From assembly GCA_944325155.1 (NCBI GenBank), contig CALUYY010000002.1, positions 1-64,000 on the forward strand: DNA of 64,000 bases. Direction: 5' to 3'. Numbering within the stretch: position 1 is the first letter of the stretch; each line of letters starts with the position of its first letter. Source of the DNA: Candidatus Gastranaerophilales bacterium. GTDB taxonomy: Bacteria > Cyanobacteriota > Vampirovibrionia > Gastranaerophilales > Gastranaerophilaceae. Under the pieces are notes generated by a model. The model was not told where the DNA came from. It ran no database searches and was given only the letters and a program-made list of their open reading frames with translations. Below are positions 53,440 to 57,476 of this stretch, piece after piece. The position numbers were made by a program, and so were the translations under genes.

Positions 53440-53527
53440 AGTATTATTATAGTCGTAAACTCCTCTATAAACTCCGTAATACTAATTCTATCCATCACGG
53501 CTAATCTATATGATTGCCGTTTTTTTT
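53440..53527 (+). ncRNA. Candidate small RNA with anti-Shine-Dalgarno loop
   Basis: The gap between oadB and the ATPase gene holds a plus-strand RNA-like unit. An outer 7-bp stem AGTATTA/TAATACT (53440-53446, 53477-53483) encloses a stacked 6-bp stem TTATAG/CTATAA (53447-53452, 53465-53470). Its 12-nt loop carries AAACTCCT, and a second unpaired ACTCC lies at 53471-53475. A 13-nt linker leads to a terminator hairpin with eight T. No plus-strand gene lies between the oadB terminator and this one. CUCC loops can pair with AGGAG ribosome sites. The 5' end is unknown; no good promoter is seen closer than ~53370. Confidence 0.5.
53497..53527 (+). terminator. Second plus-strand terminator, 3' end of the candidate small RNA
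   Basis: ACGGC-t-AATC/GATT-GCCGT hairpin (9 bp, one bulged T, 5-nt loop) followed by eight T (53520-53527), reaching the stop codon of the opposing ATPase gene. The minus strand has no T run after the stem, so the orientation is plus. Confidence 0.75.
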
Positions 53528-54872
53528 ATATATTAACATCCCTCATCATATCTTTAAGCGCCTTAATGGTGGTATCCATCGAAACCAAGTCCGTTGTTTT
53601 TTGCTGTAAAAAGCCGTTAATCTTGGGCATTAATTCTATCGCAATGTCAAGTTTGGGGTTTGAGCCCGTTTGATACATGCCTACATCTATAAGGTCTTTA
53701 TTTTCCCTGTATAATGCAAGTAACTGCCTCATTTTAGAGGCGGCTGCCTGATGTTCTTTATCGGTAATTTCGGTAAATAACCTTGAAACAGATCCTAAAA
53801 CATCAATGGCAGGGTAATGATTCATCTCGGCAACTTTTCTTGACAGGAAAATGTGCCCGTCAACTATACCTCTTACTATGTCTACAATCGGGTCTGTTAT
53901 ATCGTCCCCTTCCATAAGTACGGTATACAATGCCGTGATTGAACCTTTTTCTGAATTTCCCGTGCGCTCCAATGCTCTTTGAAGCCAAGAAAAAATTGAA
54001 GGCGGATACCCCTTCATTGTGGGCGGCTCTCCGATTGATAATCCGACTTCACGTCCCGCCATGGCGCACCTTGTAACGGTGTCTGTCATTAAGAAAACTT
54101 TTTTTCCTTTATCTCTGAAATATTCACAAACCGATGTTGCTGCCAAAAGACATTTCATTCTGATTAACGGGGGAAGGTCGCCCGTGGCGCAAACGATGAC
54201 GGATTTTTTCATGCCTTCTTCGCCAAGTGAATTTACCATAAATTCTTTAACTTCTCTGCCGCGTTCTCCAATCAGCGCCATAACGTTAACATCGGCTTCC
54301 GAATTTCTTGCAATCATTCCGAGCGTCGTACTTTTTCCGACCCCCGAACCTGCAAATAACCCCATTCTCTGTCCGCCGCCAAGCGTTAAAAGCCCGTCAA
54401 TTGCTCTTATTCCTGTTGATATCATATCTTTTATTATGGGTCTGTGAAATGCATCGGGTACATTTCCGTTAATATTTACGTATTCCGCCCCCTCTAAATC
54501 TAATGGTCTGCCATCCATTGGTTCCCCGAGCGGGTTAATTAACCTTCCGAGCAAAAAATCACCGACCGGAAGCATAATGGGGCCCCCCGTTGTTTCAACC
54601 AAAGACCCCTGACCTATCCCCGCACCGTCATACAAAAGAAGCAATTGTGCCATCTCGCCTTTAAAGGCAACAACTTCCGCCGCCTTTTTTTCGCCCGTAT
54701 AGGTTTGAATATAACATAAATCGCCGATTTTAAGCCCGGGCAGCTTAACTTCAACGGTGAGACCCACAAGTTTTGAAACAACGCCTTTATATTTATATAA
54801 CGGAAGATTTTCCAATGTTTCAAGAGCTTTTATTTTTGTATTATGAATTTTATATTCAAATTCTTCATTCAT
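53526..54872 (-). CDS. FliI/SctN-type export ATPase
   Basis: Hexameric ATPase that energises flagellar or virulence type III export. Features: N-terminal beta barrel (~20-95), Walker A GLFAGSGVGKST near 168-179, ALIGERGREVKEF (F-type catalytic Glu), the Walker B region KVFLMTDTVTRCAMAGREVGLS, and GYPPSIFSWLQRALERTGN. The AGREVGL and TGNSEKGSITALYTVL blocks are typical of FliI/SctN rather than F1 beta subunits. Length 448 aa. No other flagellar or secretion gene is next to it, so flagellum versus injectisome cannot be decided. Upstream and downstream genes are unrelated. Confidence 0.88.
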   Translation of the reverse strand: MNEEFEYKIHNTKIKALETLENLPLYKYKGVVSKLVGLTVEVKLPGLKIGDLCYIQTYTGEKKAAEVVAFKGEMAQLLLLYDGAGIGQGSLVETTGGPIMLPVGDFLLGRLINPLGEPMDGRPLDLEGAEYVNINGNVPDAFHRPIIKDMISTGIRAIDGLLTLGGGQRMGLFAGSGVGKSTTLGMIARNSEADVNVMALIGERGREVKEFMVNSLGEEGMKKSVIVCATGDLPPLIRMKCLLAATSVCEYFRDKGKKVFLMTDTVTRCAMAGREVGLSIGEPPTMKGYPPSIFSWLQRALERTGNSEKGSITALYTVLMEGDDITDPIVDIVRGIVDGHIFLSRKVAEMNHYPAIDVLGSVSRLFTEITDKEHQAAASKMRQLLALYRENKDLIDVGMYQTGSNPKLDIAIELMPKINGFLQQKTTDLVSMDTTIKALKDMMRDVNI

Positions 54873-55788: not shown

Positions 55789-56937
55789 TTATAAATCGGT
55801 GTTGTTTGAATAAAAAAGAACGTATCCTTCATTTATTGCATCAACCAGAATTTTTGCATATCTTTTTGCGGTTTTAAAATATGCGAGATGGGCCAAAAGA
55901 AAAGTTCTTCTTGATGTTTTATCCGACTTGTCGTAAATAAAGCCGCCGTTTGGATTAATATCAAGATTAATTTCTTTTTCTATTTCGTCAAACGTTAAAT
56001 TGCCGCTTGTCGGGAACCCTAAAGGGTCGTCCGAATAATTAACGGTAAGCCAGAACATATTATTTTCAACGATAAATTTATAAGATAATGCCATAATTTC
56101 GCTCATTTTATAGTTTTTATCATAAAGGTCGCTGTAAAATAAAGTATACGGGCTTGCATAATTAATTCCGCCTATAATTGCGTCTTTCGGGGTGCATAAT
56201 TTCTTTGTATATTCGTTTAAAGTATCAATTTTTGTTTTAAAACTTTTGATATCATTTTCAAAAACAAATTCATCAACAATGTCATAGGTAACGAGTTTTG
56301 AATTAAAAATTGCATCCGTACAAGTGTCGTCAAGATTTCTGTATGATACGTAGTTTTTATAATTGTCATCAAGTTTTGATTTTAAAATCGAATCTTTAAT
56401 TTTAATAACGGGCATTTTGATTGTCATATACTGCTGCACTATAAATGTTCCCGCACTGTATCCTATAAGAACCAGTTTATTTCCCTTATTATATTCATTC
56501 ATTATTTCTTTGTGGAGTTTTTGAATAATCGGGTACATATTTTCGGTTTTTGAAACCCAAATGGCGTCATGCAGACACATTGCAATAAATTTTCTTACAT
56601 AGTTTGCCGGTTTCGGGCTGATTGCTTTTAAAATGTTAAATTCTTCATTTATGATTTCAATTTCATCCCTGCTCATATCGCCCCAATAAAAAGGATACGG
56701 GGTTTTATTTATTGTTAAATTTCCTTCTTTTAAATATTTTTGATTAATTAATTCATCGGCCGAAAACTGTTTCACTATTTCTTTGTGCAGTTTGTTAACG
56801 CCTTTTATAAAATCTTCTTTGGATTCTTCGGTATTTGTGTTTGAACCGTTGAGATAGATAAAACTGACTTCGTTTTGAGCATGGCTTAAATTAACACCGA
56901 GTGCTAAAAACATCAGTAAAATTATAAATTTTTTCAT
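55789..56937 (-). CDS. Exported alpha/beta-hydrolase-like protein
   Basis: Secreted protein of 382 aa. The start at 56937 gives MKKFIILLMFLALGVNLSHAQ, a cleavable signal peptide; the longer ORF from 57069 runs through the structured leader and adds non-conserved sequence. A nucleophile elbow VLIGYSAGTFIVQQ (G-x-S-x-G, Ser near 160) and an early strand SFIYLNGSNTNT (possible oxyanion region) suggest an esterase/lipase-type fold. The acid and His of the triad are not certain; HLAYF near the C-terminus holds a candidate His. Substrate unknown. GAGGGAG precedes the ATG. Confidence 0.75.
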   Translation of the reverse strand: MKKFIILLMFLALGVNLSHAQNEVSFIYLNGSNTNTEESKEDFIKGVNKLHKEIVKQFSADELINQKYLKEGNLTINKTPYPFYWGDMSRDEIEIINEEFNILKAISPKPANYVRKFIAMCLHDAIWVSKTENMYPIIQKLHKEIMNEYNKGNKLVLIGYSAGTFIVQQYMTIKMPVIKIKDSILKSKLDDNYKNYVSYRNLDDTCTDAIFNSKLVTYDIVDEFVFENDIKSFKTKIDTLNEYTKKLCTPKDAIIGGINYASPYTLFYSDLYDKNYKMSEIMALSYKFIVENNMFWLTVNYSDDPLGFPTSGNLTFDEIEKEINLDINPNGGFIYDKSDKTSRRTFLLAHLAYFKTAKRYAKILVDAINEGYVLFYSNNTDL

Positions 56938-56960
56938 TTCTCCCTCATAAAAAATAAAAA

Positions 56961-57069
56961 TTGCTCTACACGGGTAAATTTTGTTACCTGCGGTGCTCCC
57001 ACAGGTGGGTGAGCGCCTCGACAAATCCGTTTCCTTTAAAAATGATAAAATCACCAAGGTATACTTCAA
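56961..57069 (-). ncRNA. GC-rich structured leader or small RNA upstream of the exported hydrolase
   Basis: In an AT-rich genome this intergenic stretch is strikingly GC-rich. On the minus strand a possible promoter (TTGAAG 57069-57064, 16 nt, TATCAT 57047-57042) precedes two adjacent hairpins. Hairpin A (57014-56995) pairs GCT-CCCA with TGGG-AGC; hairpin B (56992-56969) pairs CGC-A-GGTAA with TTACC-C-GTG. A short T-rich tract precedes the hydrolase ribosome site. It matches no riboswitch class I can recognise; a cis-regulatory leader, an independent RNA or a mobile-element remnant are all possible. Confidence 0.45.
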
Positions 57070-57200
57070 TTGTCTTTTAATTTTAAAGAGCAGGCTCTCC
57101 CGTTTTATTAAAATGTAGGAACAAAATTACAACCCGCATAAAGCAATTAACATTTTATCATTAATTTTTATCTTTTGTCTATTAATTAAAATGTTATTGC

Positions 57201-57476
57201 CTATCCCAAAAGACGTTTTAATTCTTTCTCTCTTTTCTTTTTTAAGAGCTTGTTTGTTCTTTTTCTGATTACAACCTGGGGAGTATCTTCAGGCATTGCG
57301 GCCTTAAAGAAATCTTCCCTCATGGCGTCAAACTCTCTTAATTTTTGAAGAGCTTCTTCCATACGGGATTTTTTAGCCTGTTTAATCAACACCTGAAATT
57401 TGGCTTTTTCGCTGATATCCATTGAAATTAAGCTGTAAAAACTCATACATATATAATGAGCTTTTATTTTGGGCAT
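57201..57476 (-). CDS. Small basic protein of unknown function downstream of engB
   Basis: Up to 91 aa; starts at M1, M12 (57443) or M19 (57422) are all possible and none has a clear Shine-Dalgarno. The conserved-looking part starts at MDISEKAKF and is a helical, Lys/Arg-rich protein (KQAKKSRMEEALQKLREF...RKRTNKLLKKKREKELKRLL). It superficially recalls small ribosomal proteins such as bS21, but the bS21 signature is absent. Possibly nucleic-acid binding. It follows engB by 11 nt on the same strand, so it is co-transcribed. Confidence 0.6.
   Translation of the reverse strand: MPKIKAHYICMSFYSLISMDISEKAKFQVLIKQAKKSRMEEALQKLREFDAMREDFFKAAMPEDTPQVVIRKRTNKLLKKKREKELKRLLG

Follow-up and report, generated by a model that had tools for sequence, protein, structure and literature searches.

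A GC-rich island ahead of an exported hydrolase gene in a Candidatus Gastranaerophilales bacterium: very probably part of a divergent 6S RNA (ssrS) gene

The closest described systems are the 6S RNAs. In one published account (PMC8414754), 6S RNA sequesters the housekeeping RNA polymerase and is released by synthesis of a product RNA. According to the same account, these molecules are ~160-200 nt long and share a canonical form, which combines a closing and an apical stem with a 5′ central bulge, where the product RNA starts, and a hairpin opposite this bulge; their product RNAs are expected to carry GG at positions 4/5 or 5/6 (PMC8414754). In cyanobacteria, the 6S homologue goes by the name of Yfr7 (PMC2662882). 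A literature search that covered only a minority of subscription papers found no publication that mentions 6S RNA alongside Melainabacteria, Gastranaerophilales or Vampirovibrio. As for the genes that follow 6S, the E. coli ssrS transcription unit is reportedly dual-function (to go by the title of a 1985 paper by Hsu and colleagues). The gene downstream of it is ygfA.

The locus described here lies in the window, by which we mean the whole 64,000-nucleotide stretch of Candidatus Gastranaerophilales DNA that was analysed, where the original prediction had singled out positions 56961-57069 as a GC-rich non-coding island. This island is almost certainly the 3′ half of a gene, with a promoter of its own, for a divergent 6S RNA (ssrS). 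The gene occupies 56957-57148 of the minus strand and specifies a free-standing RNA of ~190 nt (192 nt for 57148-56957), with its 5′ end at ~57148-57144 and its 3′ end at ~56959-56949, inside a U-rich tract. The island is indeed non-coding, upstream of the ATG at 56937 that opens the neighbouring gene, but its GC excess is modest: 44% against 35.3% for the window, a value that 13% of all 109-nt windows match or exceed, with 58% GC in the inner 50 nt (reached by 1.5% of 50-nt windows). Its boundaries did not hold, the true element being ~57148-56957. Among 58 genomes, comprising the window's own and those of 57 relatives, 41 gave blastn matches to a 501-nt query around the island. Within the genus, most matches begin at query position 118 and end at ~347-355, corresponding to ~57183-56946 of the minus strand, so that conservation reaches well upstream of the island.

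The gene that follows on the same strand (55789-56937), a neighbour outside the RNA, encodes an exported alpha/beta-hydrolase-like protein with an N-terminus that reads as signal-peptide-like and with weak Pfam matches to alpha/beta-hydrolase families, none above cut-off. Its longest ORF starts at TTG 57069, 44 codons ahead of ATG 56937, and the original warning that annotation could thus acquire 44 false residues was sound: the TTG adds exactly that number, and the extension is not conserved since the extra frame, open for 33 codons in G001, closes after 4 in G003 and 9 in G007. In the window, the hydrolase start lies ~20 nt beyond the closing stem of the RNA, and the two genes adjoin in four of the nine genus genomes (the window's own, G001, G003 and G007), the start codon standing 37-39 nt past the end of the GGTAACAAAATT motif in all four. 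This proximity, which leaves scant room for a separate promoter, is what would favour reading the RNA as a cis-acting leader of the hydrolase, either a riboswitch or an attenuator, in line with the original suspicion of an unfamiliar riboswitch. We nevertheless regard a leader as very unlikely, since the RNA sits beside different genes in different genomes and is therefore not a hydrolase leader in general. A hydrolase homologue is found in 17 of 33 genomes searched, and beside the RNA in only four of these, so that linkage is not conserved; in the others it lies far from the RNA (in G002, on a different contig). In the other five genus genomes, the RNA is followed by a gene other than the hydrolase, be it that of a FliI/YscN-type ATPase or a further one, and neighbours differ again in other genera (11 loci of the same family and that of G040 were read). 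Riboswitches have also been considered in their own right and rejected: at gathering level, an Rfam search of the whole window gave only a tRNA, and no Rfam riboswitch family matched the locus even at E ≤ 10. What stood of the original prediction is that the RNA is structured, as borne out by the 6S match and a rod-like fold; what did not is the riboswitch or leader, given that the RNA matches a known family, has its own promoter motif and has unrelated neighbours in most relatives.

On its other side, the RNA is preceded by ysxC and a small ORF in the window, G002, G003, G005 and G007, and by other genes in G001, G004, G006 and G008. The small ORF (57201-57476, minus strand), which lies between ysxC and the RNA, encodes a basic protein of 91 aa with counterparts at 47-55% in G002, G003, G005 and G007, and it matched nothing in Pfam or NCBIfam. 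The window also has a FliI/YscN-type export ATPase gene near the RNA (53526-54872, minus strand; TIGR01026 above cut-off); no further export genes were noted beside it among the neighbours scanned, and a FlhB-family gene (PF01312) sits on contig C5 of the same genome.

The assignment to 6S comes from covariance models; a covariance search, with riboswitch models, had been recommended in the original prediction. In permissive mode, the Rfam 6S model (6S RNA/SsrS, RF00013) aligned to the locus over all its 187 positions (1-187) with 20.5 bits (E 0.029). This differs from an ordinary family member in falling below the gathering cut-off of 46.4 bits, which is a detection threshold and no biological feature, and a search of the whole genome with RF00013, even at E ≤ 10, did not find the window copy. 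Apart from 6S, the permissive search of 56900-57220 returned two snoRNA models and one Yersinia sRNA, all at chance level (E 3.3-7.2). Among the same 58 genomes, RF00013 matched in 40, in 22 of them above cut-off, at positions that coincide with the homologues found by blastn for the window locus; Synechococcus elongatus gave a match in the Rfam 6S control. In the window's family, 21 of the 35 genomes examined matched at E ≤ 10 and four above cut-off, and in its genus one of nine and none, respectively.

These low scores in the genus, where RF00013 at E ≤ 10 finds a single genome in nine, are what could suggest a new and unrelated family of conserved non-coding RNA that merely resembles 6S. 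That we consider highly improbable because homologues in sister genera and families exceed the 6S cut-off over their full length, and because a model built solely from such homologues recovers the locus. This model, R2 (22 copies above the Rfam cut-off, with no sequence from the window's genus), gave 93.2 bits at the locus and 89.6-100.1 bits in all eight genus-mates, the second-best site in the window genome, at 18.6 bits, not being comparable. The chain from curated 6S to the window locus is therefore direct, and it is on this chain of homology, i.e., orthologues above cut-off in 22 of 58 genomes and R2 at 93.2 bits here, that membership of the 6S family rests. A broader model, R1, made from 39 Rfam-located copies with the window's genus excluded, scored 112.9 bits (E 8.3e-23) at the locus and found nothing elsewhere in the window genome at E ≤ 1. 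Of 38 genomes searched with it, 23 had supplied training sequences, and it detected the RNA in 37; on the 15 genomes outside training it matched 14 (the miss being G048), and across a sample of the class it matched 115 of 146 genomes, some of them training sources. Between them, the custom models find the RNA in all nine genomes of the window's genus.

Some of these searches turned up observations of a different kind. The G016 copy (L027:1062-1340, contig C13) has an insertion of ~90 nt in the apical arm, and R1 matches it with 85.2 bits over 238 nt despite this insertion. In G106, two similar R1 matches (C70:1276-1480, 69.9 bits, and C7:68985-69181, 64.7 bits) mean that this genome of the class possibly carries two 6S RNAs. 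A scan of titled genome records with a specific 6S pattern found 115 loci, and among the 80 of these that were listed are many Candidatus Gastranaerophilales and Melainabacteria records. Three public genome records that contain the Gastranaerophilales-type pattern, L089 and L103 (labelled Acinetobacter) and L135 (labelled Fusobacterium), are probably mislabelled assemblies. In two families of the class, f10 and f12 (with genomes such as G059, G064 and G061), R1 at E ≤ 0.01 and with stricter filters matched none of the listed f10 genomes and failed to match several from f12, where 6S may have been lost or have diverged too far.

The structure of the RNA points the same way. The fold of 57148-56957 reaches −62.5 kcal/mol, against −40.0 ± 4.4 for shuffled sequences (z −5.09), and takes the shape of a rod. 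Its 17-bp closing stem (57132-57148 with 56959-56975, minus strand as throughout) is followed by a 9-bp inner helix (helix 3) between AAUUUUGUU at 57120-57128 and AACAAAAUU at 56977-56985, paired in 90% of alignment cells. Then comes an unpaired 5′ central bulge of 18 nt, CCUACAUUUUAAUAAAAC (57102-57119), which starts with an invariant CC (invariant alignment columns) and faces an 8-bp hairpin with the loop GAGCA on the 3′ side (56986-57006; helix 8), which is 90% paired and changes on both sides in five of its eight pairs. Above the bulge, 57094-57101 (GGG.GAGC) pairs with 57007-57014 (helix 4, 95%), and the rod ends in an apical arm and terminal loop (57020-57074), in which helices 6 and 7 are 98-100% paired; helix 5, in the lower apical part, is weakly supported at 52% of cells, for which alignment gaps are partly responsible. 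With its large bulge and the hairpin opposite, its 192 nt and a rod that runs from closing stem to apical arm, the RNA has the features and the size (about 160-200 nt) of 6S, and the agreement of bulge, opposing hairpin and rod with the canonical form given in PMC8414754 likewise speaks against an unrelated family. The likeness to RF00013 extends from length, rod shape and full-length model alignment to details such as the CC and the A/U-rich strand that follows it in the 5′ bulge, GGGAG after the bulge and the opposing hairpin CACCCACCUG...GCAGGU. The window's RNA differs in its somewhat longer apical arm and in its closing stem, the 17 bp of which are unbroken. The cyanobacterial 6S (Yfr7) would be the same RNA in photosynthetic relatives.

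The conservation of this structure was assessed on two alignments drawn from 52 located copies. A1 holds 39 of them and omits (i) eight genus copies, (ii) G010, G019 and G020, whose blastn ends are partial or misplaced, (iii) G016, owing to its insertion, and (iv) G029, which has no RF00013 match; A3 has 51 rows, with G016 and G020 out and the window added. Over the 51 sequences, 85.9% of cells are paired, and both sides change in 32 of 52 pairs. When partners are slid, pairing falls to 36-48%, a comparison that favours the structure since it was drawn from the window sequence. A consensus structure from the 39 non-genus copies is paired in 94.1% of cells, with changes on both sides in 30 of 46 pairs.

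The two adjacent hairpins on which the original prediction was built fare less well. Both inverted repeats exist and appear in a plus-strand fold, but they are not the conserved structure. A plus-strand RNA was tried and rejected, its fold being weak (z −1.36), and the minus-strand fold of 56955-57075 is barely better than shuffles (z −0.96). On the RNA strand, one pair of the first hairpin becomes C-A, and the two hairpins together are paired in 60.0% of cells over the 51 sequences, against 85.9% for the 6S structure. That 60.0% lies above the values for shuffles (56.1%) and for slides (33-45%) is expected because the hairpins have columns in common with the true helices. They are local alternatives that relatives have not kept. 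The modest GC excess and a local fold so close to that of shuffles could also be those of a GC island and hairpins that arose by chance, or the whole could be a mobile or repeated element, but the RNA has a copy number of one in the window genome (a search for further copies, also recommended originally, found it to be no repeat), R1 finds orthologues in 37 of 38 genomes and covariation is strong, so that conservation contradicts this reading and leaves it a vanishingly small probability.

Signals fit for a free-standing gene independent of its neighbours flank the RNA, judging by sequence motifs. The possible promoter that the original prediction had placed upstream, with no coordinates given, has a conserved counterpart at 57181-57152 of the minus strand, consisting of a −35 TAGACA (57181-57176), an 18-nt spacer and an extended −10 TGATAAAAT (hexamer 57157-57152). 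This promoter-like site has 10 of 12 consensus matches and ends at 57152, a few bases ahead of the closing stem. At the corresponding place, 48 of 51 copies carry an extended −10 that fits TGnnAnn[AC]T, where shuffles give 2.8, an excess that is descriptive only because the pattern was chosen after the sequences had been viewed. The looser TAnnnT occurs in 46 of 51 copies (a count without a control) and stricter hexamers in 30 of 51, against 12.6 in shuffles. At the other end, a U-rich tract, UUUUUAUUUUUU, lies at and beyond the end of the closing stem (56949-56960), and 46 of 51 copies have such a tract behind the stem, where shuffles give 31.8. To judge from its sequence it is a possible terminator; a simple terminator scan of the window called none.

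By analogy with known 6S RNAs, we infer that the locus is transcribed, binds polymerase and templates a product RNA. By homology, the RNA would mimic an open promoter and occupy RNA polymerase carrying the housekeeping sigma factor, from which it would be released once the polymerase had used the 5′ bulge to make a short product RNA. With the 5′ central bulge as template and a start opposite ~57115-57113, this product is predicted to be 5′-GUAGGAACAAAAUU or a form extended at the 5′ end by 1-2 bases. If the start were opposite 57115 or 57114, the GG of the product would be encoded by the invariant CC. The downstream hydrolase may, in this genome, be read from the 6S transcript, and co-transcription is plausible in the four genomes in which the two adjoin. 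The arrangement recalls E. coli ssrS-ygfA in that a protein gene stands close behind 6S and one transcript may be common to both, but here it is a hydrolase gene that follows, and only four of nine genus genomes have this link. A more elaborate scenario, which we put forward as improbable, is that 6S in this subgroup also serves as the 5′ end portion of the hydrolase mRNA, in which case secretion of the hydrolase would be tied to growth phase through release of the polymerase or through transcription beyond the U-tract.

In conclusion, the RNA is a divergent further member of a known family, 6S, and its version in this gut relative of cyanobacteria has drifted out of reach of the standard model. 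Its recognition fills a gap in annotation, which, when based on cut-offs, would report 6S as missing in the window's genus and may also extend the hydrolase by 44 false residues.
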